Shown: positions 1 to 16,763 of the stretch, piece by piece
Position numbering within the stretch: the stretch's first letter is position 1
Layout: the number at the start of each line of letters is the position of its first letter
Source: Entamoeba histolytica HM-1:IMSS
Lineage: Eukaryota; Evosea; Mastigamoebida; Endamoebidae
NCBI RefSeq assembly: GCF_000208925.1
Contig: NW_001914904.1
Coordinates: 1,786-27,225, forward strand
DNA: 25,440 nt
Direction of reading: 5' to 3'
The notes under the pieces: model-generated
Told to the model about the DNA's origin: nothing
The model's input: only the letters and a program-made list of their open reading frames with translations
The model's database searches: none
Translations under genes and position numbers: made by a program

Positions 1-225
1 CTAAAGAATGGGATAATTTACAAATTAGGAAAATACAAATTAAAACTATTTTCCAAAAAACGAAGAAAAACAAAAAAGAGTATAACAAGAAAGAGAAAAC
101 TCAATTATATTTCATTTATATTTCATTAAATAAGAAATGATTGTTTAATTTGTTTTTATAAAAATAGAATGAGGAATGTTAGATAATACATACTATATCT
201 TTACCATTTGATAATTTTCTATTTA

Positions 226-281
226 TATCTCTAGAAATGTTTTATATAACTATTTGTATCTCTAGAAATGTTTTATATAAC
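226..281. repeat. Direct repeat of 25 bp containing TTTTATATAAC
   Basis: Two 25-bp copies, 226-250 and 257-281, share TATCTCTAGAAATG followed by TTTTATATAAC at a 31-bp period. Further copies of the TTTTATATAAC core lie near 501 and 525, and variants lie near 620-635, ahead of the gene at 693. They may be TATA-like promoter elements or protein sites. The right inverted repeat carries the mirror copies. Confidence 0.6.
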
Positions 282-290
282 AATTTAAAA

Positions 291-491
291 GGTCATACTG
301 TGACCCGCTATGCAGGTCATACTGTGACCCGCTGAGCAGGTCATACTGTGACCATCAAGCACATTTTTTCATTAATTTTTTTTTTAATTTTTCAAAAATA
401 TATATCTAAAGGAAAAAAATGAAAAGAAAAAAAAAGAAAAAAACCATCAGATGGTCATACTGTGACCCGCTATGCAGGTCATACTGTGACC
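291..491. promoter_or_regulatory. Iteron-like dyad array, left copy (candidate replication origin)
   Basis: The 15-bp unit GGTCATACTGTGACC has 5-bp arms (GGTCA/TGACC) around a 5-bp centre. It occurs at 291-305, 315-329 and 339-353, then again at 453-467 and 477-491. Within each cluster the spacing is 24 bp, so sites lie on about the same DNA face every two turns or so, and the 9-bp spacers are CGCTATGCA or CGCTGAGCA. The two clusters flank 354-452, which is nearly all A and T. Iterons beside an easily melted tract are typical of Rep-dependent origins in plasmids and viruses; the origin role here is inferred. A multi-site operator for a dimeric regulator is the main alternative. Confidence 0.65.
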
Positions 492-692
492 CTTAAATGG
501 TGTTTTATATAACAAAAATGAAATGTTTTATATAACATATCCTATCAATACACAAATAAGAATTTATACAAGAAGTTAAACAATGTTATACAATGTTATA
601 CAAATCAACAACTCCCATTTTATATAATGTTTTATACACAAAAAACACATGTGTTTGTTATACACTTCTGATCTCTTATTTCTCATTCATCA

Positions 693-1040
693 ATGAATAG
701 TCCAAGAACCAATGATAAGCCCAAGAAGTCTAAAAGAGTTAGTGAATATAAAAGATACCAAAAAAGGTATTATTTCATCACTAACAAAAAAGATTATTTT
801 GATATAATATCTTATATTTTAAATACTTATAAATATAGAGCTTTTATTGGATTTCGAATGCATAAAGATGATAAAGACACTGTTAGAATCTTTATCTGGT
901 TTTATAATAATGTTACATTAAGATATTATAAAATCAAAGACTATTATGATATACCTAAGGGAATGTCAAATAGAGATATTCTCAAAGAAATATATTCTGA
1001 AAAGATATTATTCAAGGATGGAATACTTCCTCAAAGATAA
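693..1040 (+). CDS. Small protein, possible degenerate HUH Rep-type domain
   Basis: The product has 115 aa. The first nine residues (MNSPRTNDK) are encoded inside the inverted repeat and are identical to those of the unrelated gene at 10468. After a basic segment, the order of elements resembles the N-terminal HUH nuclease domain of CRESS-DNA Reps: a hydrophobic strand YYFITN, a helix, a strand-turn IGFRMHKDDKD, a strand VRIFIWFYNN where the HUH motif would lie, and an NRDILKE...FKDGILPQ stretch where the YxxK motif usually lies. The two histidines and the tyrosine are absent, so it should not be an active nuclease. It aligns loosely by eye with residues 3-95 of the 258-aa protein at 11156-11932. 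A DNA-binding role on the adjacent dyads is an inference. A novel unrelated fold remains possible. Confidence 0.7.
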   Translation: MNSPRTNDKPKKSKRVSEYKRYQKRYYFITNKKDYFDIISYILNTYKYRAFIGFRMHKDDKDTVRIFIWFYNNVTLRYYKIKDYYDIPKGMSNRDILKEIYSEKILFKDGILPQR

Positions 1041-1110
1041 AGATAATTGATTTCTTATTTTATTTTTGTTTTCCTCTAATCTAATCTAATCTCATTTTCC
1101 CATTCTTCAA

Positions 1111-1428
1111 ATGTCTGATAAAACTCCATCATCCAGACTTCCATCAACTTATATTGGTAGAAGACTATTCTCTATTTATAATGATGACGATGACGATGAA
1201 TATAGAAATCCTATGGTCTATGATATGTGTGGGACTTGTACATATAAACACCAGTCTGACTATGACATTGTCATCCCTGATTATTCTACTCATTATAATA
1301 GTCAAAATCAAAATGAAAATCAAAATGAAAATAATACCTTTATGATTATTGATAATAATATTAATAATAATGAAAGAGAAATGTCCTTTGACTCATTTGA
1401 TGATGAGAATTACTCCAATCTACTCTAA
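1111..1428 (+). CDS. Hypothetical acidic, Asn/Asp-rich protein
   Basis: The product has 105 aa and I do not recognise it. It contains a run of five Asp near residue 26, a QNQNENQNENN stretch and an N-rich tail, so most of it is probably disordered. The segment YRNPMVYDMCGTCTYKHQ carries two close cysteines. The start is preceded by CATTCTTCAA, similar to the ATTCA-type initiator near other genes here. It follows the 115-aa gene on the same strand after 70 bp. An overlapping 63-aa frame starting at 1154 is judged a shadow. Confidence 0.6.
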   Translation: MSDKTPSSRLPSTYIGRRLFSIYNDDDDDEYRNPMVYDMCGTCTYKHQSDYDIVIPDYSTHYNSQNQNENQNENNTFMIIDNNINNNEREMSFDSFDDENYSNLL

Positions 1429-1479
1429 AAATTAAATCTAATTGATTTCTTAAAAATTCTTCAATTATATTATTCGTGT

Positions 1480-1938
1480 TTAAAAGTCTAAATAATTCTC
1501 ATCTGTATGGACTACTTTAAATAATCTATGGAATTTCTCTACTTCATAACTACTCTTAAATTCAAACAATTCTTCTGGACTAAATGTAGATGTAATTATT
1601 AATGTATAATTAACTGGATTAATTATAATAGTATCATCTTCTTTACTACTTATTTGTGCTTCAAAATTATAATAATCTCCCCATGTAAATATACTACTTT
1701 TAATATAATTAACACTATCTTTATCAATATCATCTAATAAAACTACTTTTTGTTTTTTATAATTTCTCCATAATTTACTTGTACTTTTATTATAGGGAAT
1801 TATTTGTCCTACTCTTTTACAAACTTCATTTGCTGTAAATGTCTTTCCTGTCCCAGTTTTTCCCCACAAAAAGATGTTCTTCCCTTCTATTGCCTTTCTT
1901 ACCGTCTCTTCAAATATACCTCCTTTCTCTACACTCAT
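1480..1938 (-). CDS. Stand-alone SF3 helicase domain of CRESS-Rep type
   Basis: The product has 152 aa. Motifs in order are Walker A GKTGTGKT (residues 26-33), Walker B VVLLDDID (65-72), a WGDYYNFEAQ segment (86-95) matching the conserved tryptophan/aromatic region of Rep helicases, a sensor strand IITST (114-118) followed by SPEELF, and FHRLFKVV near 137-144 with a possible arginine finger. This is the order in the helicase half of circular ssDNA virus and plasmid Reps, yet there is no room for an HUH nuclease. It would hydrolyse ATP and unwind or load at an origin, probably with a separate DNA-binding partner. It diverges from the gene at 1975 with only 36 bp between start codons. Confidence 0.8.
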   Translation of the reverse strand: MSVEKGGIFEETVRKAIEGKNIFLWGKTGTGKTFTANEVCKRVGQIIPYNKSTSKLWRNYKKQKVVLLDDIDKDSVNYIKSSIFTWGDYYNFEAQISSKEDDTIIINPVNYTLIITSTFSPEELFEFKSSYEVEKFHRLFKVVHTDENYLDF

Positions 1939-1974
1939 ATTTCTTTTTTCAGTTCTTATCTCTTTAAATATTCA
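1939..1974. promoter_or_regulatory. 36-bp bidirectional promoter between 1938(-) and 1975(+)
   Basis: On the minus strand the order is ATATTTAAAG (1962-1971), then GAAC (1952-1955 region), then the start codon. This is the TATA - GAAC - initiator order described for E. histolytica core promoters. On the plus strand AAATATTCA abuts the ATG at 1975 and resembles the Entamoeba initiator AAAAATTCA. Both transcripts must have very short leaders, as is common in this genus. Confidence 0.5.
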
Positions 1975-2814
1975 ATGTCTACTAATAAAACAAACATTCC
2001 TCATAAAATTGACCAATGGTTTAAAAAGACAACAAAACAAAAATACGTAGAACAACTTAGAAAGTCTATCACTGAAAGAAATATTCATACTGACATTTAT
2101 TTTTTATATCATTTAATTCAACAAATTTATCATTTTCAAATTGTTCTTACTGATATTAATGCTCAAAAAGATAAGATTCATATCATGTATCCTGTTTCTT
2201 CTGTTTATTTTATTGGAGATATTAAAACACCTTTGAATATCTCTATTTATAAACAACTCACTACAAATTTAATCTCTTTAACTAGACTTAAAGGGTATAG
2301 ATACTCATTAGAATCTACTTTCAAATATTTGTGTCAATTCTTGACTAATGTTGGGATTCTTATTAGATACACTTATCCTGAAGGAATTCTCTCTATTAAC
2401 TTTAACTTTAGAGTTTATACTCAACAAAATACTTTCATTTCTGAACTTAAATCAAAAAATGATTTAATGCTATTTGTTCATAATCCTGCTATCACTATAT
2501 TTAATCATCTCAAAACACAATTCAATTCTAATAATCATCTTCTTGTTCTACAAAATCCACTCTTTGTTAATATAATGTTTTCTGGAAATGATACTGGAAT
2601 AGTAGCTTTCTTAAATGATTCCTCTCTATTGTCTTCTGAAAAAAGTCTTCCTAAAGTCAATCAATTGGATACTTTTAATTTCTCTATTGATAATCTAGTT
2701 GCTCTAAATGTTAATAACACTGATCCAGATACTAATATTAATCAAGATGACGTTCAATTAGAAGAATTCTCTTTTACAAATTTTCAACATACTTTACTAT
2801 TAGATTCTAATTAA
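1975..2814 (+). CDS. Hypothetical protein (279 aa)
   Basis: I do not recognise this protein. The ATG at 1975 (MSTNKTN) is preferred over reading further upstream, because upstream codons lie in the divergent helicase gene and give a composition unlike the rest. The N-terminal ~60 residues are basic and helical (IDQWFKKTTKQKYVEQLRKS). The middle is a mixed alpha/beta region with many hydrophobic strands (IVLTDINAQKDKIHIMYPVS, NISIYKQL, GILSINFNFRVY), and the last ~50 residues are Asn/Asp-rich. Codons end mostly in T, as in the next gene (Rad52-like), and it lies 51 bp upstream of that gene on the same strand, so the two may be co-expressed. Confidence 0.75.
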   Translation: MSTNKTNIPHKIDQWFKKTTKQKYVEQLRKSITERNIHTDIYFLYHLIQQIYHFQIVLTDINAQKDKIHIMYPVSSVYFIGDIKTPLNISIYKQLTTNLISLTRLKGYRYSLESTFKYLCQFLTNVGILIRYTYPEGILSINFNFRVYTQQNTFISELKSKNDLMLFVHNPAITIFNHLKTQFNSNNHLLVLQNPLFVNIMFSGNDTGIVAFLNDSSLLSSEKSLPKVNQLDTFNFSIDNLVALNVNNTDPDTNINQDDVQLEEFSFTNFQHTLLLDSN

Positions 2815-2865
2815 TGTTTTATTATTTCTTTATTCCTATGAATCTATTATTTTTCTCTTTTCATT

Positions 2866-3996
2866 ATGAGTCTCACAAATGTTAATAACACCACTAATCC
2901 TAAGAAACCAAAAATTAATATTCCTACTTATCAAGAAAAACTTAAACGTGATTTAAAGAGTAGAATTAGTACTCTTAACCATACCCAAAATAAAAAAGAA
3001 GTCTTTGATTTCATTGATGAATACTTCGATCATAATAAATACACTATTCAATTAGAAAGAATGAAATTAATGGGTTCTAAACAATTAGTTAAAATGTTCA
3101 GTCCTCCTATCAATGTAGACTTCTTAAATAAAATGTTTAATGAAAATCTTCTCTCTGGTGCTATGTATAACAAAATTCTTCAATTTAATGAATCTCATAT
3201 AATTAGAAAATTAAATGGTTTATATGTCGATCAAACTATCTTTGATATCCTTCAAATGAATAGTATTGAATTAATGCGATACTTTGATATAGATAACAAT
3301 ATCTTTCTAAAAGGTAATCTTAAAGGAAATAAAATGATGTGGTTACCTACTCCTGTTTGTACTCTAATTCTCAATAATCTTCTTGGTCCTGGTAATTGGG
3401 AAATAATGGAAAGAATCGATTCTATTGAAAAAAATGGGATATTTACTATTCATGGAAAATTAGTCTTATGGCTAGCAAATGGTACACATTATGAAACTGA
3501 TGGCTATACTACTAAATTCTTTGAACAAAAAATTACTTCTTCAAATTATTTTAATGCTATGAAATCTCACAAAACTTGGTTTACTCGTCTATTATTGTCT
3601 CAAGCTTTTCAATGTTTTCTTTCTATTAATAGTGTTAATGCTGAAATAATGGAAAATATGGGTCAAACTGAATTATTCTTGGATGAATTAAAAGAGAAAA
3701 ATCTCAGTATAAAAGGTACAGATCCTATTCTTATTGAACAATCTCATCACTTGAATCAAAATGTTGTTAAAGAGTTTCATTTGTTAGAGGATCTTTCTAC
3801 TAGTACTATGACTATTCCTAATACTACTACTACTACTACTACTACTAATACTAATACTAATGTATTTAACAATGATAAGATTCCCTTAAAAGAAACTGAT
3901 GACTCTCTTAAGACTATATCAGTTAAAGAAATTAATGACAACGATAATGATGATGATTTTCTAAATGAAATAATAGATGAAATTGACGAAAAATAA
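2866..3996 (+). CDS. Rad52-like single-strand annealing protein
   Basis: The product has 376 aa. The region at residues ~159-255 has the layout of the Rad52 annealing core: LGPGNWEIMERID, then GIFTIHGKLVLWLANGTHYE, then TDGYTTKF, then a loop ITSSNYFNAMKSHKTW and a helix TRLLLSQAFQCFL. This corresponds to the strand-strand-strand, G-[YF]-G-like turn, and KxAxTxAxKRAL-like helix of Rad52/Rad22 proteins, although basic residues of that helix are partly replaced. Residues 1-150 are helical and unassigned, and the C-terminus is a Thr repeat and an acidic tail. Such proteins anneal complementary ssDNA and drive recombination-dependent replication in phages and viruses. Its presence fits the near-identical inverted repeats. 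The assignment is by eye from the core only. Confidence 0.55.
   Translation: MSLTNVNNTTNPKKPKINIPTYQEKLKRDLKSRISTLNHTQNKKEVFDFIDEYFDHNKYTIQLERMKLMGSKQLVKMFSPPINVDFLNKMFNENLLSGAMYNKILQFNESHIIRKLNGLYVDQTIFDILQMNSIELMRYFDIDNNIFLKGNLKGNKMMWLPTPVCTLILNNLLGPGNWEIMERIDSIEKNGIFTIHGKLVLWLANGTHYETDGYTTKFFEQKITSSNYFNAMKSHKTWFTRLLLSQAFQCFLSINSVNAEIMENMGQTELFLDELKEKNLSIKGTDPILIEQSHHLNQNVVKEFHLLEDLSTSTMTIPNTTTTTTTTNTNTNVFNNDKIPLKETDDSLKTISVKEINDNDNDDDFLNEIIDEIDEK
3820..3862. repeat. (ACT)n trinucleotide repeat inside the Rad52-like gene
   Basis: A run of ACT/AAT triplets encodes a poly-Thr/Asn linker between the annealing core and the acidic tail. The repeat is in frame, so length changes would not break the gene. 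Confidence 0.85.
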
Positions 3997-4011
3997 TTCA
4001 TTTATTTCTTC

Positions 4012-7000
4012 TTATTTAATATTCATTCCCTTTTCTTCCTGCTTAATCATAACATATCCTAAGTATCGAATGTCATTGATACTTTCTAGTAATCCTTTAA
4101 ATGGAGATGAATCATTGATATAATACATCATAGGCTCAAAGATAAAGTCATACAAGTTAGTAAAGAGCCATTTATCTATTGCCCAATTTGTATCACTATC
4201 TCTTTTATCATATGGAATATAAATTATGTCATTTGTATTTTTAATTCTAAAGAATGTTTCAATAGGTACTACATTAATAAGATCTTCTTTTCCAAATACA
4301 CTATAGATATCTCCATAATTTGTTCCCATTATAACAATTAATTTATTAGGTGAATCATATCTTTGAAGTCTATTTCTTGCTCCTTGAATTTCATTCATCA
4401 TTTCTCCATATTCACTATCGCTAGCATCTTCAAATATAATTACCTCTACATTCTTTTCATCTTGTTCATTAATAACCCATTTCTTTTTCTTTTCTTCTTT
4501 ATACTTCTCTTCTATATTATTGTAATAATCTATAATATATTGAGGATCATATTTTTCATTCCTAATTTCTTCTACACTTTTCATTTCTAATTCAATTGGT
4601 CTCCATATCATAATTTCTGCTGTTTTGAAATACTCACTTGGACTAGGAATATAATAGTTTCTCCATTCTTCAAATCCATTTCTTATCTTTTGATATTCTT
4701 TATGACTATAATTGACATCTTCTCTATCATATTTCTGTTCTTTTGTATAAATAATATTCATTGCTTCTTCTATCTTATCTAGAATCTCAATAAGTCCTTC
4801 TTTTTCTTCATCTTCTGTAGTTAATCTTGTACTTATTAATGTCATAATGTTAGCCATCTCTTCATTACTCATTGTACTTTCGGGTGGTTTGTCATCTATT
4901 CTACTTCCATTAAAGTACTTCATCATGAGTCTATAGATTTTGTCAGTGTAAACCCATCCATTCTTAACATTCTGATCTTCATCATTCAAAATGTAAATGT
5001 CCTTATTTTCTTTCTTTCTCTGAATTTTATAATCAACTGCATTAATAGTATAATCACTATAATCCTTAAATGTAGTCATATTGAGTAGATCATCAATAAA
5101 GAGTGTTTCCTCTCCTTTACTAAGACTAAATGTAACATTATTTCCTACAATATCTTTTGTGAATATAACACTTCCATTCTTGTATGATAAATACATGCAT
5201 TTATATTGCCATTCATTCAACAATCTCTTCATTTCATTAATATCCTTTGTTTGGAGTATCTCCTCTAATGATGCCTTTGCACTGACTGGACTGTACTGTG
5301 GATCTCCTGTAATATCCTCCCATGATTGGAAATATTGAATGTCATTCTCAACAATTACATCAGATACTATATCTAGATCACTTCTAATTTTTACAATATA
5401 TTCACTAAATGTCATTTTAGTACCATTTGCAAATATAATTTTTGTGTCTTTATCTATACTCTTAAAATCTCCATTTGTTAAATAGTGAAGATAAATATCA
5501 GCCATATATTTTGATGCAGGAATTCCTCTTACTGTTAGAAGATTCTTTAAGTTAGTAATTGTATCTTTACTTTCATCATATTTAAAGTTAGAAGGGAAAC
5601 ATTTTTTTACAAGTGATTCTTTTAAATAAAAATTATTCTTATCTTGAGGTTCATTTAAATTTAATAAATCTTTTAATACATCAAGATAACTTTTTAGACT
5701 TGTATCTTTAATTTCAATTAAAGTATTATAATAGTTAAAACGAGAGTCATCTGAGTTAAGTGCATGTGAAATCAATTCCCCCATAAATGCAATTTGTGCA
5801 TATTTTGTATAGTATGAATCATCTAAATCATTATTTTCAGAACGAGTATAATGTAGTGCTGCACTTTGAATATTATTATAACTGTTCCAATCAATAAAAG
5901 GTAAATTAATACCTTGGTTCTCAACAGAGATTTCACTAACAATAATATCATATTTATTCTTATTATTTTCTATAAATTGATTAATATTACTTCTTTCTTT
6001 TTCCATTATTATAACTCCTTTAATACACTTTGTTTGACATTCACATAACCATTGAAGATATGATGTCTTGTCTGAGTATAACTTACTTGTATACATACTT
6101 CCTTTGTTGATGTCATCTAATACAACTTGAGTATATTTCTCTAAATCTAAATCTATGTTATATGGAGACATATCATCATGTAGTGTGCGTCTTTCTACTT
6201 TGAGTTGGTTTTCAGAATTATTCTCTACTATATCAATGTATCCATATTGTGAATCAGGACTATTGTTATCATAAGTACTTACATCTCCTTTGATTAGAAA
6301 CTTTCCTTCTACCTTATCAAGACTTAGTCTATTATCTAAGAGAATTCCTTCTAGAAATGTATTACTCTTAAATGCTTTTAGATTGTCACTAATATAAATA
6401 GAGTCATTCTCATATGCCTCTATTTTCTGTTTTGTGAGAAAAGTACAATCTACTATGCTCATACCTGATACTAAACTATTTCCTAGTGATTGATCATCTG
6501 TAGTTGTTCTAATATCAAATGTACAATTCTTTAATTTGAGATTTTTAACAGTAAGATATCCTGCACTACATATCATTGCATCATTTATTTGAACAGAGTC
6601 TGTATCACTACTCTTAGTAAATTCACTATCTCCCTCCTTCTTATAATTATTTATAGTTGTATCACAAAATACTACTATTCTATTACTTTTTTTGTTTGTC
6701 ATAGTAATGTTTTTATTAGTAATAAAACCAAATGAATAAACATGAAGGATCTTATCAAGTTCTATGTCTTCATTCATGTCAAATTTAATGAGTGATGCTT
6801 GTTTAGTAGAATAAACATTTTCTCCATTTTTTTCCACTTCTTCTAATTGACTCTTATCTGTATAAGTTATTTCCATATAAGCATTAGCAAATGGATTTTC
6901 TATTATTTGTCCTTCTTGTGTTTTAATTGTAACTGGTTCATTCATATAAACTTTATACTTATCTGGATTGTTTGTATAAAAAATATCTGTTTTACTAAAA

Positions 7001-8254: not shown

Positions 8255-8322
8255 GAATTGGTTAATTAAACTTAGATTAATGCATATAAACTCGCAACTC
8301 AAAAATGCAATAGAAAGAGAGA

Positions 8323-8577
8323 ATGGAAGAGATCTACAATATCTTTTGGGGTGTCTCAATCTTTATAAATTTCATAGTGATCTTAGTTGTTGTGAATGTT
8401 ATCCTTTTGATGTGCTGTTGTTGTCGAAAAAGAGATGTTCAACGGTTGAAAGAGGTGTTAACAAAAGACAAGAAAGTGAAGAAAGGGAGAAGAAGAATAG
8501 AAGCACAAAGCCAAAAAGAAATTCAAGAAGACATTAATAATAACAAATCTAATGAAAACAGCGAATTAATTGAATAA
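8323..8577 (+). CDS. Small single-pass membrane protein with Cys cluster (84 aa)
   Basis: The protein has a short acidic N-terminus (MEEIYN), one hydrophobic segment at residues ~8-30, four consecutive cysteines at 31-34 beside basic residues (RKR), and a charged Lys/Arg/Glu-rich tail of about 45 aa. This is the layout of a membrane protein with a palmitoylated juxtamembrane cluster and a cytosolic tail. Small proteins of this kind are common in viral genomes, but the function is unknown. It starts 68 bp from the divergent Tdp1-like gene. The next gene on the same strand starts at 8609. Confidence 0.65.
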   Translation: MEEIYNIFWGVSIFINFIVILVVVNVILLMCCCCRKRDVQRLKEVLTKDKKVKKGRRRIEAQSQKEIQEDINNNKSNENSELIE

Positions 8578-8608
8578 TTTTAGAAAAGAACTTAAAAGTT
8601 TAGAATCA

Positions 8609-9964
8609 ATGAGTTATAATTCGAATACTCTATCTATTATATCAGGGATTAAAGATGATGTCAAAGAATTACTTACTAAAAACCAATTAATCCAATTAAA
8701 TAGGATTCTATCAGGAAGTACAATAGTTAATAATATAAAATCAGGAGCAGTTGTGAATACATTAAAATTTATTAAAAAACCAAGTATTGATAATTTAAAT
8801 AATTTATTAGATTCATATACAGCAATCAAAATATTCAAGATAGAAAAAGGTATAATTAACAAAACAAGAGAAAGAATTAATAATTATTATAAAGAAAACG
8901 AAGATCCAGTCTTTAGTGAATCAACAATCCAATTAGTAATATTACTGTATCAACTAATTAATAAAAACAATCCAATGTTTACTGATAAAGAAATTAAAAT
9001 CAAAGGATTAGCAACAATATATATAATGTCTATAATGTTAAGATACATGTTTAATTTAAATGTCCTTCCAAAAGAATTTAATGAGAATTTTGAGAAAGTA
9101 GGAGCTTTTAATGAGTATAAATATCCGATTTATGTAGACACAAGAAATGGAGATAATGTAAATGAGGGACTTGTACCAAATCTATGGGTCAAAGGAATAA
9201 TTGTACCATACATTAATGAGACTCTATTAAGAACAGTAGAAATTGAGTACAGTATCATAATGAGCATTCTGTATATTGAAGATGTATTAGAGAATATTCG
9301 AGTCAATATTGAAAGAGGAAATAAAGCAAATGATACATATGATAAGATGATAAAACAACAAAAAGAATTAGAAGTATTACAAGGGAAATTAGGATATGAT
9401 TTAAACCAAGATATTTGGTTAAGAAATCTAATATACAGAAGATATCCAGAGATTTCAAGTATTAATAGTGAAAAGACAATTGATGGAGTAATTATTTATC
9501 CAGAAACAATCCAGTTTCTGAACCAATTAGAAGAAATCCAAAAAATGACATTAGAAGAAAGATTAAGTATATTTGCTAATCATTATAATCAGAATTATAT
9601 ACAAGTTCTTTCATTAGGAAATAGTATAGCATCAAGAATAATAGACATGAAGAAGATAGACAAAGAAGTTGTAATGAATTTAGAAGAGATGACATATACT
9701 AAACCAAAGAAAAGAGTTGTTATTAGCAATAATCCAGTAGAAGTAGTTGAAGGAGAGAAAATCCGATTAATGAGTAAAATAGCAAATGAAAGTACAGAAA
9801 GAGAAGAAAGACAAATAATGAATGAATTAATGAGCAAAGATAAGGAGATCAAAGATGTGATTGCACAAATAGAAGAAGAAGGAGAAATAGAAGAAGAGGA
9901 TACAATTCCACTAGAGGAGAAAGAAGAAGATAGTTCTATTTCAAGAGTGAGAATCCATATCTGA
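8609..9964 (+). CDS. Hypothetical helical protein (451 aa)
   Basis: I do not recognise this protein. The ATG at 8609 (MSYNSNTLS) is chosen; an extended frame to 8570 would begin with TTG. It is rich in long helices (AIKIFKIEKGIINKTRERIN, YDKMIKQQKELEVLQGKL) with a central segment VPNLWVKGIIVPYINETLLR, and ends in a Glu-rich, probably disordered tail. No signal peptide or obvious membrane span is seen. Codons are A-rich, unlike the T-rich genes to the left. Its TGA stop overlaps the ATG of the next gene by one base, an unusual arrangement for a eukaryotic nuclear gene pair. Confidence 0.75.
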   Translation: MSYNSNTLSIISGIKDDVKELLTKNQLIQLNRILSGSTIVNNIKSGAVVNTLKFIKKPSIDNLNNLLDSYTAIKIFKIEKGIINKTRERINNYYKENEDPVFSESTIQLVILLYQLINKNNPMFTDKEIKIKGLATIYIMSIMLRYMFNLNVLPKEFNENFEKVGAFNEYKYPIYVDTRNGDNVNEGLVPNLWVKGIIVPYINETLLRTVEIEYSIIMSILYIEDVLENIRVNIERGNKANDTYDKMIKQQKELEVLQGKLGYDLNQDIWLRNLIYRRYPEISSINSEKTIDGVIIYPETIQFLNQLEEIQKMTLEERLSIFANHYNQNYIQVLSLGNSIASRIIDMKKIDKEVVMNLEEMTYTKPKKRVVISNNPVEVVEGEKIRLMSKIANESTEREERQIMNELMSKDKEIKDVIAQIEEEGEIEEEDTIPLEEKEEDSSISRVRIHI

Positions 9965-10203
9965 TGATAGAGAATAACAAGATAACTCCCATGGAACTTG
10001 AAGTCAATGTGATGAGTAGTGATCGTGTTATAGCAGGAAATAGAAGAGTAGTAAAGAAGTATGACTTTTCAGAAGCAATTCAAAAGGAGATAAGAAGAAG
10101 CAATGAGGAGAGAGGAAAACTAGTCTTCAAGAAAGTAGAATTAAGAGAGATACATAGAGTATCCACTCCAACACAAATTATCTTCAAGAAAGTAGAAAAA
10201 TAA
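9964..10203 (+). CDS. Small basic protein overlapping the upstream stop codon (79 aa)
   Basis: The start codon shares one base with the stop of the 451-aa gene (TGATG). An internal ATG at 9991 (MELEVNV) is an alternative. The product is highly charged and basic, with FKKVELREIH and IFKKVEK, two similar FKKVE segments near residues 55 and 74. No domain is recognised. The overlap suggests translation from a shared transcript by reinitiation, or a transcript start within the upstream gene. It converges with the gene at 10232-10468, with 28 bp between stops. Confidence 0.55.
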   Translation: MIENNKITPMELEVNVMSSDRVIAGNRRVVKKYDFSEAIQKEIRRSNEERGKLVFKKVELREIHRVSTPTQIIFKKVEK

Positions 10204-10231
10204 AGTAATTGAGAATTTGTTAAACATTAAA

Positions 10232-10468
10232 TCAATTAAAATTGTCAAGATAATCATCAAGATAATCATCGAGATTATGATCATCAAGATAATCATCATA
10301 TTCAAAGGAGTCATTTTCAAGATTATAATAATATTCATAATCTTCACTATCATATTCTTCAATGTCATTGTTTTTGTCAACACCTTCAACAATAAGGTCT
10401 ACTGTAATTACATGACCTGAAGGGATGACTATAAGATCAATCTTATCATTGGTTCTTGGACTATTCAT
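10232..10468 (-). CDS. Small very acidic Asp/Tyr-rich protein sharing its N-terminus with 693-1040
   Basis: The product has 78 aa. Residues 1-9 (MNSPRTNDK) and the whole upstream region lie inside the inverted repeat and equal those of the gene at 693, but the rest is different. After a short hydrophobic stretch (IDLIVIPSGHVITVDLIVEG) the protein becomes almost purely Asp/Glu/Tyr/Asn, ending in repeats of DDYLDD. Such tails can mimic DNA or bind basic proteins, as an inference. Alternative frames over the same bases are judged shadows of the AAGATAATCATC repeats. Confidence 0.6.
   Translation of the reverse strand: MNSPRTNDKIDLIVIPSGHVITVDLIVEGVDKNNDIEEYDSEDYEYYYNLENDSFEYDDYLDDHNLDDYLDDYLDNFN
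10243..10305. repeat. Short tandem repeat AAGATAATCATC
   Basis: Imperfect 12-bp units on the plus strand encode, on the minus strand, the DDYLDD/DDHNLDDYLDD repeats at the C-terminus of the acidic protein. Confidence 0.7.
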
Positions 10469-11159
10469 TGATGAATGAGAAATAAGAGATCAGAAGTGTA
10501 TAACAAACACATGTGTTTTTTGTGTATAAAACATTATATAAAATGGGAGTTGTTGATTTGTATAACATTGTATAACATTGTTTAACTTCTTGTATAAATT
10601 CTTATTTGTGTATTGATAGGATATGTTATATAAAACATTTCATTTTTGTTATATAAAACACCATTTAAGGGTCACAGTATGACCTGCATAGCGGGTCACA
10701 GTATGACCATCTGATGGTTTTTTTCTTTTTTTTTCTTTTCATTTTTTTCCTTTAGATATATATTTTTGAAAAATTAAAAAAAAAATTAATGAAAAAATGT
10801 GCTTGATGGTCACAGTATGACCTGCTCAGCGGGTCACAGTATGACCTGCATAGCGGGTCACAGTATGACCTTTTAAATTGTTATATAAAACATTTCTAGA
10901 GATACAAATAGTTATATAAAACATTTCTAGAGATATAAATAGAAAATTATCAAATGGTAAAGATATAGTATGTATTATCTAACATTCCTCATTCTATTTT
11001 TATAAAAACAAATTAAACAATCATTTCTTATTTAATGAAATATAAATGAAATATAATTGAGTTTTCTCTTTCTTGTTATACTCTTTTTTGTTTTTCTTCG
11101 TTTTTTGGAAAATAGTTTTAATTTGTATTTTCTAATTTGTAAATTATCCCATTCTTTAG
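10442..11159. repeat. Right copy of long inverted repeat (about 718 bp)
   Basis: This is the reverse complement of 1-719 with one base missing. At its inner end it contains the start codon and first nine codons of the gene on the minus strand at 10232-10468. At its outer end it contains the stop codon (11156-11158) of the 258-aa gene. It therefore spans a whole intergenic control region. The repeat cannot be compared beyond 11159 because the left copy meets the window edge. Near identity implies a recent origin or continuing gene conversion. Confidence 0.95.
10670..10870. promoter_or_regulatory. Iteron-like dyad array, right copy
   Basis: This is the mirror of the left array, read here as GGTCACAGTATGACC, at 10670-10684, 10694-10708, 10808-10822, 10832-10846 and 10856-10870. 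The spacers, the 24-bp period and the A/T tract between clusters (10709-10807) are preserved. I did not notice the 15-bp motif elsewhere in the window, which ties it to the inverted repeat. Confidence 0.65.
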
Positions 11160-11932
11160 ATTTCTCTAGCATTTCTTATGTCTTCTGCATATCGCATATA
11201 TTCTGAAAGAACATATTTTATCTCTTGAAGTGCTTTCTTCCCTGTTGTAGACTCTGTAATGTTCTCTAGAATTTCTACATATTTCTTCACTTTCTCATAA
11301 GCTTTTCTTCTGACTGTAAACTCCTTTTCTTTATCTTTTATGATTTGCTTCAACTGCGACATTTCAATCTGACTAAAATCTTCTTCTTCTTCCTTAATCA
11401 TCCAATCTTCAACACTTAAAACTTTCTCTTTTTCCTTAATCATCCAATCTTCAACACTTAAATCAATTTCCTCTTCCTTAATCATCCAATCTTCAACACT
11501 CAAATCAATTTCTTCTTCCTTTACTATTGGCTTCTCTTCTATTAATATTGGCTTCTCTGATTTTATTATCGCTTTTTCTTCCATTATTATTGCCCTTTCT
11601 TTCACTTCCTTTAATGGCCTTTCTTTCTCTTCTCTTATTTCACTATCAAAGTCTCTAATCTTATTGATATGTTCTATAATATCTCCTTTCTTACGAAGGT
11701 ATTTTATCGTACGTTCATAATCATAATCATATCTGTTTTTGTATATTTTTATTCTCTTTGAAATATTCTGATTTAACTTTGGTATCTCTATTGTGTACTT
11801 CACATATATATATACTTTATCTTCTTCCTTGTCTTTTGCTGAGACAATATATGTCATGTAACGATTCATCATCAAGTACTCCTTTACTTCATCATAATAG
11901 CTTATTGGTGTTATTACTAGAAAGCTACTCAT
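11156..11932 (-). CDS. Repeat-containing protein with Rep-like N-terminal domain (258 aa)
   Basis: Residues 1-95 follow the order of a CRESS Rep nuclease domain: strand FLVITP, helix YDEVKEYLMM, strand YIVSAKDKEED, strand KVYIYVKYTIEI in the place of the HUH motif but without histidines, and KYLRKKGDIIEH where the catalytic YxxK motif lies, here present as YLRK. It resembles the 115-aa protein at 693 by eye. A Glu/Lys-rich linker follows, then three 14-aa repeats around LSVEDWMIK and a coiled C-terminus. The stop codon lies inside the right inverted repeat. The gene sits 61 bp downstream of the SF3-containing gene on the same strand, so the pair may be a split origin-binding protein and helicase. 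The Rep link is tentative. Confidence 0.7.
   Translation of the reverse strand: MSSFLVITPISYYDEVKEYLMMNRYMTYIVSAKDKEEDKVYIYVKYTIEIPKLNQNISKRIKIYKNRYDYDYERTIKYLRKKGDIIEHINKIRDFDSEIREEKERPLKEVKERAIIMEEKAIIKSEKPILIEEKPIVKEEEIDLSVEDWMIKEEEIDLSVEDWMIKEKEKVLSVEDWMIKEEEEDFSQIEMSQLKQIIKDKEKEFTVRRKAYEKVKKYVEILENITESTTGKKALQEIKYVLSEYMRYAEDIRNAREI
11390..11515. repeat. Three 42-bp tandem repeats inside the 258-aa gene
   Basis: Units starting near 11390, 11432 and 11474 each encode 14 aa with the core LSVEDWMIK. The two units nearest the protein N-terminus are identical in protein sequence and the third differs in a few acidic or basic positions. The period keeps the frame. The repeat may be a multivalent binding motif. 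Confidence 0.85.
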
Positions 11933-11993
11933 AACTGTTTTTTTTTAATTTCTTTTCTAAAAAATAGTATATAAATATTTAATAATATTTCTA

Positions 11994-13457
11994 TTATAAT
12001 TCAATGAATCCATCATCTACTTCTTCCGTATCTGTTTCTTCTTTGTCTTCTCCTGAGTATTCATCTTCTGAATTAGTGGTGCTATAGTCTGTCTCACTCT
12101 CTATCAGTTTCTCATCTTCATACCTCTCATCTTCACATTTTCTGTCTTTCTCTTCATCACTCTGTTCTTTATCTTCTCTTCTTCTTCGATTTGAGACTCT
12201 TTGGATTTCTGACTCAATGATTGCTTTCTTCTTTCTCATTAAATACTCCTCATAATCTTCAAGAATCTTCCTCTTCTGTCTTTCTGGATTGGGAAGTTTA
12301 ATCTCTTTCTCACTTGGTAATTGGATGTACTTCTGAATGTCATAGATATATCCATGCTTTTCATTTAACTCCTTTTTAATCCATTCATTCATATTGACTG
12401 TATCACACTCCTTTAACTCATTGACTGGAATAATCGAATCAAAAAGATACTTGTATTCTCCTCTCACTTCTTTTTGTGTGAAGATCGGTCTTTCTTCTTC
12501 TATACACTCCTCTTTCTGTTCAGGATAAATCACAGCATTTCGTTCAATAAACTTCCATATGTCACTGAAATGTCTCTGGAAATTGATGTAATCTTCTTTG
12601 TTGACTATGATGATTGGAATCAATGGGAAGATGTATTCATACCCATACTTGATATCAACACTCGAGATGTTTCTGTTCATCAATGCTTTCAACTCGGTAC
12701 TTTTCACTTCACTCCAATTAATATCATCTAAGATTCGGAATATTTTATGTGGCTGATTTGACATTTTACTGTATTCAAGATTGTTTGAATGATAAATGTA
12801 ATACTCATCAGGAACAATAAACTTTGTGAAGAAGACACTCTTTCCTATGTAAGTACTTCCAACACAGATGAATGTCTTGAATCGATCCACTCCTCGTTTG
12901 TATGTATTCTTCAAAAAGTCTGTAAATGACTTGTACAATGGATGGTCTTCATTTGGTAAATACAACTTCTCTGTCTTTGTAATCAATGCCTTTGTTAGAT
13001 ACTTGTACCTATTAGTTTTCCATGTCATTCGTAATTCATTGATTGTGTATGTCTCAAGTCCACTTCTTGCTGCTCTACTCTCAAATGTATCTTGATCAGC
13101 TGACTCTAGAATGGTTTTTCTACTCTCAATTGTTCTTTTGATAAAGTAGAATCCTTTTATATACTCTGCTTTCTCCATCATTAGAATCTTAATCACCTCC
13201 TTTTGTGTTTCTATATACTCATTGATTGTTCTAAACTTTTCATTTTCTGGAATTCTTTTTCCATAACTGATTATTATTGGAACACTTAGATAATGCAACG
13301 AGATTATATAATTGTCGGTGTACTTGTCTACATATTTCTTGATTATCTCAAGGGTGTTTTCTCTCAAAGTCTCTTCATCAGACTTCTCCATAGATTCAGA
13401 AACTACTGCACTCTCTTTATCTGGATCATCGACAACATACTTAAGGACACTCCACAT
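11994..13457 (-). CDS. SF3-like Rep helicase protein (487 aa)
   Basis: Motifs are Walker A GSTYIGKS (200-207), Walker B FRILDDINW (240-248), a strand IPIIIVNKEDY with the sensor Asn (~286), and FIERNAVIY (~303-311) with a probable arginine finger. This spacing is that of SF3 helicases of Rep type. Residues 1-195 are helical and contain no HUH motif that I can find. The last ~120 residues form a low-complexity tail of mixed Arg/Lys and Glu/Asp ending DGFIEL. It should be an ATP-driven origin-unwinding factor. It lies upstream of the 258-aa gene in the same orientation and is divergent from the gene at 13519 across 61 bp. Confidence 0.75.
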   Translation of the reverse strand: MWSVLKYVVDDPDKESAVVSESMEKSDEETLRENTLEIIKKYVDKYTDNYIISLHYLSVPIIISYGKRIPENEKFRTINEYIETQKEVIKILMMEKAEYIKGFYFIKRTIESRKTILESADQDTFESRAARSGLETYTINELRMTWKTNRYKYLTKALITKTEKLYLPNEDHPLYKSFTDFLKNTYKRGVDRFKTFICVGSTYIGKSVFFTKFIVPDEYYIYHSNNLEYSKMSNQPHKIFRILDDINWSEVKSTELKALMNRNISSVDIKYGYEYIFPLIPIIIVNKEDYINFQRHFSDIWKFIERNAVIYPEQKEECIEEERPIFTQKEVRGEYKYLFDSIIPVNELKECDTVNMNEWIKKELNEKHGYIYDIQKYIQLPSEKEIKLPNPERQKRKILEDYEEYLMRKKKAIIESEIQRVSNRRRREDKEQSDEEKDRKCEDERYEDEKLIESETDYSTTNSEDEYSGEDKEETDTEEVDDGFIEL

Positions 13458-13518
13458 GACTAATTCTATTTAATTATTCAATTCCTTCTTTTTGAGTTCA
13501 TCTTATTTTCATTTAATA

Positions 13519-13932
13519 ATGCGTCTACTGAAACACAATATTCGTAAACAAAAACAAAATACTACTACTTCTATTAATACTACTACTACTACTAATAATA
13601 ATAATAATAATAATTGTAATAATAATAGTCATGACACTTCTTCTATTCAATCTATTAAACAATCTAAGCCTAGAAAGGTTTCTGATGAAATTAATAAGAA
13701 ATATTCATCTCTCTTGAAGAAATTATGGGAAAATGAAAAATTACTTGATAAGTATAATCTAAGTGAAGAAGTAAAGACACTTCTTAATACTCGAATGCAT
13801 TTATGGTTAGAGTATTATACAATTAATCAAGCTATGAGTTCTAATCATGACTCTGACTCAAACTCTAATTCTAATACAAATATCTTTGAATATATTGATA
13901 GCTTTTCAGAAATAACTAGTTTTTATAATTGA
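13519..13932 (+). CDS. Hypothetical small basic protein with Thr/Asn repeats (137 aa)
   Basis: The ATG at 13519 (MRLLKHNIRKQKQ) is chosen over a TTG at 13492. Residues 1-13 are strongly basic, followed by poly-Thr and poly-Asn encoded by ACT and AAT triplets, then a helical core (DEINKKYSSLLKKLWENEKLLDKYNLSEEVKTLL), a second helical stretch with TRMHLWLEYYTINQAM, and a Ser/Asp/Asn-rich tail. No domain is recognised. The basic N-terminus could bind nucleic acid. The next gene follows after only 16 bp on the same strand. Confidence 0.65.
   Translation: MRLLKHNIRKQKQNTTTSINTTTTTNNNNNNNCNNNSHDTSSIQSIKQSKPRKVSDEINKKYSSLLKKLWENEKLLDKYNLSEEVKTLLNTRMHLWLEYYTINQAMSSNHDSDSNSNSNTNIFEYIDSFSEITSFYN
13561..13630. 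repeat. ACT/AAT trinucleotide repeats in gene 13519-13932
   Basis: Runs of ACT then AAT triplets encode Thr and Asn tracts near the N-terminus. Similar triplets occur in the Rad52-like gene. Confidence 0.85.
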
Positions 13933-13948
13933 TCTAATATTTTAATTT

Positions 13949-14524
13949 ATGTTTAGCTTTTCGAATAAGGAAAAAGAGAAAATTGAACAAATAGGTGATT
14001 TAATCACACAAAAAACAGACAAAACAGACAAAACAGATGAAATTGTTACTAGTACAATAACAAAAGTTATTAAATTTAATGACACTCAATTGACTAACTA
14101 TTATAGAATCGATTTAATGGACTTTATTGAACCTACTTATGGAAATTTAAGACCTACAAGTCTTAAAATTAATCTTACTAATTATGACGACAAGATCTCA
14201 ACAATCACATTCTCATATATTCATACTCCTCTTATTAATGAATTAATTGATCACATCAATCAATCTACACTCTCAGTTAATAATCAATTTAATAAGTCAT
14301 TCTCTTATACTGTTCAATCCCCTTATTTAACTTATTATCAATTAGATTCTCAAATGAATTTAACTGACATCGACATCTCTCAATTAACTAATGTTAATCT
14401 GATTAAAGAAAGATCACAAACAGTGTCTCTAGGTGGAATTTATCTCTCTCTAAATAGATTCTCTTCTGGTTCTTGCTCTGTTGAATTATCTATGACTCTC
14501 TCTTACAAGTTAAGACTATATTAA
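13949..14524 (+). CDS. Hypothetical beta-rich protein (191 aa)
   Basis: I do not recognise this protein. It starts with a charged segment and three TDK units (QKTDKTDKTDE). From residue ~40 on it is a succession of short strands (KVIKFNDTQL, YYRIDLMDFIEP, TSLKINLTNY, ISTITFSYIHTP, FSYTVQSPYLTYYQL, IYLSLNRFSSGSCSVELSMTLSYKLRLY), compatible with a beta sandwich or jelly-roll. A virion role is suggested only by that pattern and its position beside other beta-rich genes. The gene lies 16 bp after 13932. Confidence 0.7.
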   Translation: MFSFSNKEKEKIEQIGDLITQKTDKTDKTDEIVTSTITKVIKFNDTQLTNYYRIDLMDFIEPTYGNLRPTSLKINLTNYDDKISTITFSYIHTPLINELIDHINQSTLSVNNQFNKSFSYTVQSPYLTYYQLDSQMNLTDIDISQLTNVNLIKERSQTVSLGGIYLSLNRFSSGSCSVELSMTLSYKLRLY

Positions 14525-14615
14525 ATTTGGGATATATAACATTCATGGTTATTTTTAAAAGAATCTAATAATACGCTTAAACTAAATAAGATATATTACC
14601 ACTAAGATTTGTTTA

Positions 14616-15320
14616 ATGTTTTTTTTTATTATTTTAACAATTATTAACGTTGAAGGAAGATTTCTCTATGACATTATTGATGCCCAAGACAATGCACTTA
14701 ATTCTATAAATGAGGATAAGCCATACAATTACTTTAAATATGTTAACAATGAATATCAAACTGATTATTTTCCTCTTAATAGTTGTATTAGTTTTACTGA
14801 TTATGCTGCTTATTTCTTTTATAACAACAATACACATATGAATTTCACTTATTATGCTACTATGGAAAATTGTAAAAATGCATTTGCTCCTATTGAAAAC
14901 CGTACACTTCAAATTAATTATTCTACTATTGATGAAATTAGGAATTCATATCTTCTCATTTATACATATCATGACCAAGGATGTAAAAACTTACAAACTA
15001 TTTTTTCTAAAAAGAAATTATGTTTTCCTGACAATGGAAGATGGTTAAATATCACTATAGTAAATAATACAATTTATGGTGAAGAATACTCTGATTCATA
15101 TTGTTTAAATCTTGTTAATAGCTTCACTAATGATTTAGATATTTGTTTTGCAAATACTCAGAAAAATTATTTTTATATTGACCCTTCAAAAGAAGAATTA
15201 CCAGGATTAAATTTAGATTATGACTATAATTATAATCATGTTGATAATAATGCTGAAATGATGAATCCATTATTTTCAATGATAGTTGTTCTTGTAACTA
15301 TCTTTTTATGTCTTTTTTAG
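14616..15320 (+). CDS. Secreted or membrane-anchored glycoprotein (234 aa)
   Basis: The protein begins with a hydrophobic signal peptide (MFFFIILTIINVEG) and ends with about 18 hydrophobic residues (PLFSMIVVLVTIFLCLF) and no cytosolic tail, the layout of a GPI-anchor signal; a C-terminal membrane anchor is the alternative. The ectodomain has many N-glycosylation sequons (NFT, NRT, NYS, NIT, NNT) and six cysteines that could pair. It is Tyr/Asn-rich and matches no family I know. It may be a surface protein made on the host secretory pathway, or an envelope-type protein. T-ending codons match its neighbours. Confidence 0.7.
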   Translation: MFFFIILTIINVEGRFLYDIIDAQDNALNSINEDKPYNYFKYVNNEYQTDYFPLNSCISFTDYAAYFFYNNNTHMNFTYYATMENCKNAFAPIENRTLQINYSTIDEIRNSYLLIYTYHDQGCKNLQTIFSKKKLCFPDNGRWLNITIVNNTIYGEEYSDSYCLNLVNSFTNDLDICFANTQKNYFYIDPSKEELPGLNLDYDYNYNHVDNNAEMMNPLFSMIVVLVTIFLCLF

Positions 15321-15427
15321 TCTCTTATAAGACAAAGATTCAATGATAATAATATCATTACTAGAATCTAATTAATCGTTTCTCTTATTCTTTCTTTCTT
15401 TATTTTTCACTAAAACTAAGAAAAATT

Positions 15428-16087
15428 ATGAGATCAAGACGTGCAATAGCATCCACAAGAAGAAGTGGACTTACTCCAAAACCTACAGCAAAGAACTTTG
15501 ATATAAATGATTATGCTGGTAATATTAGTGTCTATAAAGTAGATCAGATTCTTCAATTTGATCCTACTAATATGAAAAGTGCTACAGCAATAGTAGAGAA
15601 TAGTGATACTTCTCAAATTAATGTTGATATGACTAGTTTAAAGACTGAATTATTTAGAATAAAGGCTAATTATGATTTAAGATTTAATGTCAAATTATCT
15701 AATGATGATAGTAATAATGATGATGATACTAATAGTAATGAAAAGATTTATGGAATAGGATTCTTGTTTATACTCAATGATAAGAAAACAAAATATGATG
15801 TTATTATGTATTGTAATACAAATGAAAATCAGATTCAAGTTCCTTTAGAAAGTAGTTTATCATTTAATCTTAATGACTCTTTCTTTTTATTTGGTGAAAA
15901 TTCATATTCATCACTTACTATTAATCATCCTATTGTTTCTATTGAATACAATGATTATCTCCAAATATTATTAAATAATATGCCATTTGGTCTTCAAAGA
16001 ATCTTAGGTAATTTCACTTTCTCTAATGTTCTCAGTATAGTAAGTTATGATTATAATGAAACTACTGGTTCATGCTACTTAAACTAA
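15428..16087 (+). CDS. Hypothetical beta-rich protein with Arg-rich N-terminus (219 aa)
   Basis: The first 14 residues contain five arginines (MRSRRAIASTRRSG), followed by a Pro/Lys segment and then mostly beta strands (ISVYKVDQILQFD, QINVDMTSL, LRFNVKLS, IYGIGFLFILNDKKTKYDVIMYC, QIQVPLESSLSFNLND, ILGNFTFSNVLSIVSYDY). A disordered acidic loop (SNDDSNNDDDTNSN) lies near residue 95. A basic arm before a beta sandwich is typical of small ssDNA/RNA virus capsid proteins, which makes this the best capsid candidate here, but no family is recognised and the claim is inference. Confidence 0.7.
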   Translation: MRSRRAIASTRRSGLTPKPTAKNFDINDYAGNISVYKVDQILQFDPTNMKSATAIVENSDTSQINVDMTSLKTELFRIKANYDLRFNVKLSNDDSNNDDDTNSNEKIYGIGFLFILNDKKTKYDVIMYCNTNENQIQVPLESSLSFNLNDSFFLFGENSYSSLTINHPIVSIEYNDYLQILLNNMPFGLQRILGNFTFSNVLSIVSYDYNETTGSCYLN

Positions 16088-16127
16088 TTGATTATTTCTT
16101 AAAAAGAATTCAATTATCATTTAATTG

Positions 16128-16763
16128 TTAATTAATTATCTCTTTCTTAAATAATTTTCTTCTTCTACTCATACCTTGATTAGGAGTATTCTTCTCATTC
16201 TCTCTTTTACTAGTAGTAGTAGTCTCATCACTTACAAATACATATTACACATTATCACTTCCTAATGTATATTCAGTAGTACTTTGTTCAAAAATAACAT
16301 CTTCATACTTTCCTAATAAAAATGCTGATTTTCTTGGTAAATGTAATGTACCTTTAATGTCTATTCCAAGATTTCTCTCTACCATAAATGATTTATTAGT
16401 AATAGAAAAGTCTCCATCATAATTCTCTATATCTGTCTTCCAATATGAAATTTTATATGAATTAGCTAAAAACAAATATGGAACTTTATCCTTACTAGAA
16501 ACTACCATTCCTCCTACAATATATTTATTAGAAATACTATTGTGAGAGTACAATCCTATTTGAATAGCATAATCGTAATCATCATTTGTTTTGTCTATTT
16601 CTTCATTATTCTGGATATCCTTTATTTTCATCTCACTCATATCCACTTTGTACAAGTACTTAATAACTTCTCTTGCCATAACTTCATTCACTAATGGAAC
16701 ATTAGTTGTAAAATCAATGCTATAATCTTTAAATACTTGAATATCAAGTTGCTTCTCACTCAT
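16128..16763 (-). CDS. Beta-rich protein (172 aa) with in-frame TAA and 38-codon extension
   Basis: The uninterrupted part runs 16763-16245 and gives 172 aa: an N-terminal helix region (VNEVMAREVIKYLYKVDM) and then strands (YDYAIQIGLYSH, KYIVGGMVVSS, VPYLFLANSYKISYW, GTLHLPRKSAFLLGKY, VIFEQSTTEYTLGS). A TAA at 16247-16245 ends it, but the same frame stays open for 38 further codons to a second TAA at 16128. The extension starts YVFVSDETTTTSK and ends with a basic MSRRRKLFKKEIIN, a plausible protein tail. It could be a recent nonsense mutation, stop-codon readthrough, a sequencing error, or chance. No family is recognised. Confidence 0.65.

Follow-up and report, generated by a model that had tools for sequence, protein, structure and literature searches.

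The DNA viruses that we found tied to Entamoeba by sequence in print are circular Rep-encoding single-stranded (CRESS) DNA viruses, and the families in question (Naryaviridae, Nenyaviridae, and Redondoviridae) have small genomes. Whole CRESS virus genomes integrated in Entamoeba genomes have been reported (PMC7493932). Here, we analyzed a 25,440-nucleotide stretch of the Entamoeba histolytica HM-1:IMSS genome (hereafter the window; bases 1786-27225 of contig C348, which is 81,341 bases long, in an assembly of 16.95 Mb and 392 contigs). Our analysis supports the presence, at window bases 1-16897, of an intact block that matches a virus-like or plasmid-like replicon in an Entamoeba genome. On balance, we consider that this block is probably an intact, integrated copy from a family, as yet undescribed, of DNA viruses or virus-like replicons that belong to Entamoeba.

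The element resembles the Entamoeba CRESS viruses in encoding Rep-type superfamily 3 (SF3) ATPases, one of which (o3) is, among solved structures, nearest to a redondovirus Rep. It differs from them in its size of at least 16.9 kb, its 18 open reading frames (ORFs), and a Rep in which the HUH motifs are not conserved. In the papilloma- and polyomaviruses, the origins contain palindromic binding sites. The initiator of these viruses combines an SF3 helicase with an inactivated HUH domain, which is described as homologous to that of CRESS viruses (PMC6668415), and their genomes span 4-8 kb (PMC5954223). The o11 protein of the element has an SF3 domain and nicking motifs that are not conserved; however, Papillomaviridae and Polyomaviridae have animal hosts and smaller genomes, and no sequence match between them and the element was found. 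Adomaviruses are circular double-stranded DNA viruses of 15-22 kb, and the SF3 helicase was the one gene product of the guitarfish virus that was recognized at first (PMC5954223). They are similar to the element in size and in having this helicase, but they infect fish, and their structural genes, like the capsid genes of papilloma- and polyomaviruses, were not recognized in the element by Pfam in 16 of 18 ORFs. The replication principle may be like that of a papovavirus or adomavirus initiator system, a likeness by which we do not claim membership of either family.

The yeast 2-micron plasmid has a pair of identical inverted repeats of approximately 0.6-0.7 kb, and recombination between them flips the segment that they enclose. 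An internal pair of long identical inverted repeats is also found in the element, which is nearly three times larger than this plasmid, encodes Rep-type helicases, and has no Pfam match to an FLP-type tyrosine recombinase in the 16 of 18 ORFs searched in its visible part. ERE1 is 7.2 kb long, with one ORF of 369 amino acids and terminal inverted repeats of 2.2 kb (PMC2657916); the gene map and the 0.72-kb arms of the element are different, and it is neither ERE1 nor ERE2. An initial annotation, made from the sequence of the window, had called the element undescribed. We found no description of it in the literature searched, which covered subscription papers and preprints in part, although two of its proteins (o6 and o15) are already annotated as hypothetical proteins of E. 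histolytica.

Gene map, inverted repeat, and iterons

The ORF listing of window bases 1-16897 shows 18 ORFs, all of them intact and closely spaced, with both strands in use (Table 1). Seventeen ATG-initiated ORFs of at least 80 amino acids end within bases 1-16763; 16 of these (84-1119 amino acids) were used, and an ORF of 116 amino acids (8187-8537, plus strand), which overlaps both o7 and o8 but is read in a different frame, was set aside. Two small ORFs, o9b and o9c, were then added. The initial annotation had described a block of 16-17 dense, strand-alternating genes, in agreement with these 16 large and two small ORFs. Coding sequence makes up 86% of bases 1-16897, and 94% of bases 693-16763 outside arm 2 of the inverted repeat. 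Rfam and tRNA scans of the window found nothing. The tandem repeat of o10 (11372-11521) consists of approximately three 42-nt units encoding near-identical units of 14 residues.

Table 1. Features of the element and of its right-hand flank (window positions; aa, amino acids).
Feature	Position	Strand	Description
Inverted repeat arm 1	1-719		Iterons at 291, 315, 339, 453, and 477; GTTATATAAAACA repeats, promoter region, and o1 start
o1	693-1040	+	115 aa; first nine residues within the repeat, same as in o9c; no family match
o2	1111-1428	+	105 aa; decayed copies in C239, C142, and C318
o3	1480-1938	-	152 aa; stand-alone SF3/Rep-type ATPase
o4	1975-2814	+	279 aa; decayed copies in C239, C142, and C318
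o5	2866-3996	+	376 aa; possible Rad52-like annealing protein (weak likeness)
o6	4012-7371	-	1119 aa; C-terminal part conserved, N-terminal and middle parts mosaic
o7	7337-8254	-	305 aa; tyrosyl-DNA phosphodiesterase (Tdp1)-like
o8	8323-8577	+	84 aa; by its sequence, probably a membrane protein with one span
o9	8609-9964	+	451 aa; single match in genome
o9b	9964-10203	+	79 aa; start codon overlaps the o9 stop
o9c	10232-10468	-	78 aa; acidic; starts inside repeat arm 2
Inverted repeat arm 2	10442-11159		Five iterons, at 10670, 10694, 10808, 10832, and 10856
o10	11156-11932	-	258 aa; contains a 42-nt tandem repeat
o11	11994-13457	-	487 aa; initiator of the Rep type with an intact SF3 ATPase domain
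o12	13519-13932	+	137 aa; low complexity
o13	13949-14524	+	191 aa; single match in genome; jelly-roll capsid-like by eye only
o14	14616-15320	+	234 aa; sequence suggests a signal peptide and a C-terminal membrane span
o15	15428-16087	+	219 aa; Arg-rich N-terminus
o16	16245-16763	-	172 aa
ERE2-like dispersed repeat	16898-17933	+	1,036 bp; internally shortened; imperfect terminal inverted repeats
First right-hand gene above Pfam cut-off	18479-20497	-	Glucosamine-6-phosphate isomerase/PIG-L fusion

The two arms of the repeat align in inverted orientation over 719 columns with 99.86% identity and one gap, they contain an exact core of 691 nt (29-719 and 10442-11132, 100% identity), and arm 1 reaches window base 1, to the left of which contig bases 1-1785 read N. 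Each arm harbors five copies of a 15-bp iteron, GGTCATACTGTGACC, arranged as one triplet and one pair with 24-nt spacing, and this iteron is found nowhere else in the window. The relaxed pattern GGTCA-N5-TGACC occurs 10 times in the 25,440 bases, every time within the arms. The long inverted repeat with iteron arrays of the initial annotation is therefore well founded. Because the same gene start closes each arm, o1 and o9c have nine identical first residues. Fragments of the arms are also present in decayed relics in contigs C318 and C189, where they are only 81-90% identical to the window (DNA search). Taking into account that the window arms are near-perfect copies of each other, this suggests that one of them was recently copied onto the other.

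Predicted replication and repair proteins and candidate particle proteins

The SF3 motifs of o11 are invariant in 65 of 65 aligned sequences, and its database matches in public assemblies number 72, the window's own sequence among them. Every named viral structure that it matches in BFVD is either a Rep of a CRESS virus or an NS protein of the parvovirus type. The best Rep structure alignment, with the whole protein as query, comprises 401 columns. Regarding the features that define the Cressdnaviricota, o11 has the SF3 helicase domain and no conserved HUH nicking motifs (H-x-H/Q and Y-x-x-K). The sole conserved histidine (H55) is followed at position +2 by H or Q in none of the 65 sequences, and the best tyrosine column with lysine at +3 (Y65, 54% lysine) lies just ten residues past it. 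The predicted order of secondary structure elements in residues 2-117, beta-alpha-beta-beta-beta-alpha-beta-alpha, is roughly compatible with an HUH-like domain. From these alignments, the N-terminal part of o11 seems to be without a DNA-cutting site, and this domain is most likely an origin-binding domain. Within the explanation that we prefer, o11 would, with fair probability, descend from a CRESS-type Rep. The o11 profile gave no meaningful match to PDB sequences and no match in GTDB genome contigs, no match was obtained among phage records with o11 as query, and a comparison of o11 with o3 by hhalign gave nothing.

The second ATPase, o3, matches Pfam family PF00910 (E = 3.9e-9), and its nearest solved structure is the redondovirus Rep 9pqj (E = 2e-4). 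Its PHROGs matches are mostly of the ATPase or helicase-loader type, while those of the other element proteins are weak and of the function-unknown class; among plasmid records, o3 had no match. The two SF3/Rep-type ATPases of the initial annotation thus correspond to o11 and o3 by motifs, structure matches, and PF00910. Its Tdp1-like enzyme is likewise recovered in o7, which scores 39.4 bits against a cut-off of 22 for PF06087 (Tdp1); matches of o7 to Tdp1 among PDB sequences are weak (E = 0.24 and above).

For o5, comparison with a profile of the amoeba's own two Rad52 proteins gave an hhalign score of 22.4 (probability 2%, E = 0.023). The alignment falls in the Rad52 core register, is the top one among 16 element proteins, and was matched in score by 1 of 200 shuffles. 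No Rad52 match was found for o5 in Pfam at E<=10, and the genome has three PF04098 matches, none of which is o5. The likeness is suggestive, and so the Rad52-like protein proposed initially is retained as a weak resemblance and not as a firm Rad52. A different ORF of 261 amino acids, in contig C93, has a partial Rad52_Rad22 match (24.5 bits) that ranks below the amoeba's two other Rad52-type genes, and it does not match o5 by BLASTP.

Five further proteins, o13, o14, o15, o16, and o6, are candidate particle or surface proteins. Across 95% of the o6 protein, the sequence agrees completely (100% identity) with EHI8A_086060 from E. histolytica HM-1:IMSS-B. It should be noted that the latter model (1323 amino acids) fuses o7 and o6 (window 4012-8254), apparently via a false intron. 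At least seven database matches to o6 were found among the best 7,988 candidates scored, one of them being this fused model. In the family alignment, the C-terminal part of o6 is nearly fixed, and the N-terminal and middle parts are exchanged or missing, a mosaic pattern that may be seen in particle or surface proteins that are exposed. The o15 protein is 93% identical to E. histolytica CL6EHI_125500, and the ratio of non-synonymous to synonymous substitution rates (dN/dS) of o14 ranges from 0.32 to 0.56 in six pairs of four copies. The beta-rich candidate virion proteins of the initial annotation gained no support as such; no capsid match was found by Pfam in 16 of the 18 ORFs, and the jelly-roll likeness of o13 was seen by eye.

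Relics, right edge, and other virus-like remains

Window bases 1428-4883, or parts of them, recur at 84-85% identity in contigs C239, C142, and C318, and bases 1087-1428, or part of them, recur there at 72-74% (DNA search). The genes in these relics are frameshifted. The break in o3 falls at an identical residue in each of them, and the relics are 95.7-97.3% identical to each other; they probably represent one old relic that has since been duplicated. The C318 relic runs from o2 to part of o5 and continues with bases 9889-10495 (76%) and a piece of arm 2 (10729-10796), an order that matches the window with an internal deletion. Beyond the relic o2, C239 has a further fragment of an o3-like ATPase (32% identity over 137 residues), and the element from which this relic derives may have carried one more Rep-type gene, at the place that o1 and the repeat occupy in the window. 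Each of o7, o9, and o13 has one match in the assembly and no second copy, o14-o15 recur elsewhere, always as fragment 14563-16106 or part of it, and bases 16107-16897 (the o16 region) have no DNA match elsewhere in the genome. The possibility raised initially that these are ordinary scattered gene families is therefore consistent with the multi-copy o14-o15 and at odds with the single-match o7, o9, and o13.

The right edge of the element coincides exactly with the end of an ERE2-like repeat, for which the best 40 of 554 candidate places in the genome were scored. Three full-length relatives of this repeat (1916, 1922, and 1952 bp) have matching ends with imperfect terminal inverted repeats. 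In full-length size and terminal repeats they agree with ERE2 as published (1,936 bp, imperfect ends of 22 bp, and an ORF of 173 amino acids; PMC2657916); this ORF was found in none of the three, the longest ORF being at most 104 amino acids, and these copies may be decayed. Among the 17 visible ends of element fragments, 12 abut an ERE2-like terminus within approximately 3 nt, and five do not (C189 left, C239 left, the o2 side of C142, and both ends of C318). The 12 ends count as approximately five independent joins, because cassette copies share junctions by descent. Deletions starting at a transposon end would explain the abutting ends, in which case base 16897 would be a truncation and not a natural end. 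Insertion of ERE2 into the element with target duplication was also considered and rejected, no duplication being visible by eye in the window and C204 flanks.

Cassettes consisting of an ERE2-like repeat, o14-o15, and another ERE2-like repeat are present at C257:658-4255, C204:14183-18623, and C245:1-2891, with outer right-hand flanks that differ among the three. They look as if two transposon copies had moved the virus-like genes as a composite; no target duplication was seen by eye at the C204 composite. To the right of the repeat in the window, further genes were identified by Pfam as encoding a dynamin and a proteasome subunit. The initial annotation had placed host genes with introns directly beside the element, a description that requires amendment, as the ERE2-like repeat intervenes and two of the three host genes are single uninterrupted ORFs (672 and 790 amino acids).

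A second, different virus-like element of approximately 10 kb, which is large for a CRESS-type element, was found in two largely colinear copies (C189:19081-29129 and C174:15000-24999) with several further ORFs in common. Its Rep has apparent HUH (HAHAFF) and SF3 motifs, is split over two frames in C174, and had no match among PDB sequences. This element also has an Arg-rich capsid-like ORF of 507 amino acids, the first 306 of which weakly match Circo_capsid below the cut-off (E = 0.0085), and a 236-amino-acid protein similar to this ORF (hhalign E = 0.0019, 0 of 60 shuffles). Elsewhere, C189 encodes a poxvirus-A32-like ATPase (PF04665, 25.3 bits against a cut-off of 22.8) beside ORFs of 325 and 109 amino acids, and this contig may hold remains of several virus types. 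In a capsid search by hhalign, o4, o13, o15, o16, and the o6 N-terminus were compared with one another and with three proteins of the second Rep element, and pairs scoring at least 16 were checked with 60 shuffles each. Of the pairs that included a window protein, the one of o15 and the C189 capsid-like ORF was alone in being reached by 0 of 60 shuffles; it covers 27 residues at a low score and was not counted as evidence.

Competing explanations and possible replication cycle

Several results weigh against reading window bases 1-16897 as an integrated virus or virus-like replicon. The viral structure matches of o11 have query-normalized TM-scores of 0.14-0.27 in 43 rows, mostly with a large root-mean-square deviation. 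None of the PDB chains matches the o11 structure at E = 1e-3, and Clp-type AAA+ proteins make up most of the top VIA rows, so that Rep is not singled out by its fold alone. Pattern scans of IMG/VR with single sequences and profiles (o11, o9, o5, and the o6 alignment) yielded no confirmed relative, and among the longest contigs behind the o6, o11, and o15 matches, compared by length, only a 19.9-Mb record is common to all three. No capsid, packaging ATPase, or protease was detected by Pfam in 16 of the 18 ORFs or by PHROGs in 10, and the AlphaFold model of o6, built from seven sequences, has a mean pLDDT (a per-residue confidence measure) of 36. The dN/dS of o15 (0.14, from 23 synonymous and 15 non-synonymous differences between the window and C257) comes from the sole usable pair, three copies with internal stops having been left out. 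Finally, third-position GC is 0.21 in the element vs. 0.12 in host genes, and the right end of the element meets a transposon.

A less probable explanation, which we nevertheless take seriously, is a plasmid-like replicon that forms no virions and corresponds, in a eukaryote, to the 2-micron plasmid, with origins in the repeats, Rep-driven copying, flipping, and occasional integration. It would fit the paired identical arms with their iterons, the recognizable genes being those of replication and repair, and the lack of a recognized capsid or packaging gene in the searches given above. However, no site-specific recombinase is among the Pfam matches of 16 ORFs, approximately 17 kb and 18 genes, including those for a putative secreted/membrane protein and a small Arg-rich protein, are in our judgment large for a plain plasmid, and the large mosaic o6 might better suit an exposed particle protein. 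It is rather unlikely that the locus is an assembly artefact in which a free element of the culture was joined to amoeba DNA at an ERE2-like repeat. A dispersed repeat does mark the join, no part of the copy has decayed, and a repeat arm stands at the other readable end of the contig, but decayed relics of a like element are present elsewhere in the assembly, and o6 is annotated in HM-1:IMSS-B, in a cluster whose nine member sequences are spread over five contigs, from assemblies that may or may not be independent. Even then, the element itself would still be real.

Fragments among ERE2-like repeats at several places, as well as the presence of Polintons in E. invadens (PMC2657916), could point to an ordinary integrating transposon or a Polinton-like element. 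We regard this as very improbable, as the 16 of 18 ORFs searched in the visible part of the element have no Pfam match to the Polinton marks, protein-primed DNA polymerase B and retroviral-type integrase, or to a transposase, and arm 2 is internal, with 5.7 kb of the element beyond it. A chance cluster of ordinary amoeba genes is hardly credible: the element and three host genes are close in codon usage (r = 0.94) and o14-o15 exist in several genomic copies, but such a cluster would not account for the Rep-type ATPases, the repeats with their iterons, the high coding density, the decayed relics with their colinear order, and the genes that have a single match.

If the block is an integrated virus or virus-like replicon, as we favor, then in its free form o11, with or without o3, would bind the iterons in both arms and unwind the DNA, which host polymerases would then copy as double-stranded DNA and not by rolling-circle nicking. 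In this process, o3 may aid loading or may regulate. The possible Rad52-like and the Tdp1-like proteins would act in annealing, recombination, and end clean-up, and such annealing and Tdp1-like functions would suit a genome that contains long repeats and whose ends are damaged or linked to protein. The arms would stay identical through recombination, which could also invert the segment that they enclose. From the above we infer the origin function, the circular double-stranded form, the membrane or capsid roles of o13-o16 and o6, and the present integration.

A further proposal, which we put forward tentatively and at somewhat less than even odds, is that the element represents a new high-level lineage of Entamoeba double-stranded DNA viruses of approximately 17 kb or more. 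Such a lineage would have arisen from CRESS-DNA viruses, apart from papilloma- and polyomaviruses, through loss of the Rep nicking site and gain of annealing/end-repair genes and of an origin built from paired inverted repeats. Reports since 1960 mention virus-like agents of E. histolytica (PMC10925606, PMC7493932), and the lineage could include an unsequenced agent of this kind. More generally, virus-like particles of E. histolytica have been on record for more than 60 years (PMC10925606), and an intact, gene-rich element with a Rep in the genome of this species provides sequences to test for. The element would also add a case outside the animal viruses in which a rolling-circle Rep became a papovavirus-like initiator that no longer nicks; what drives such a transition has been called obscure (PMC6668415).

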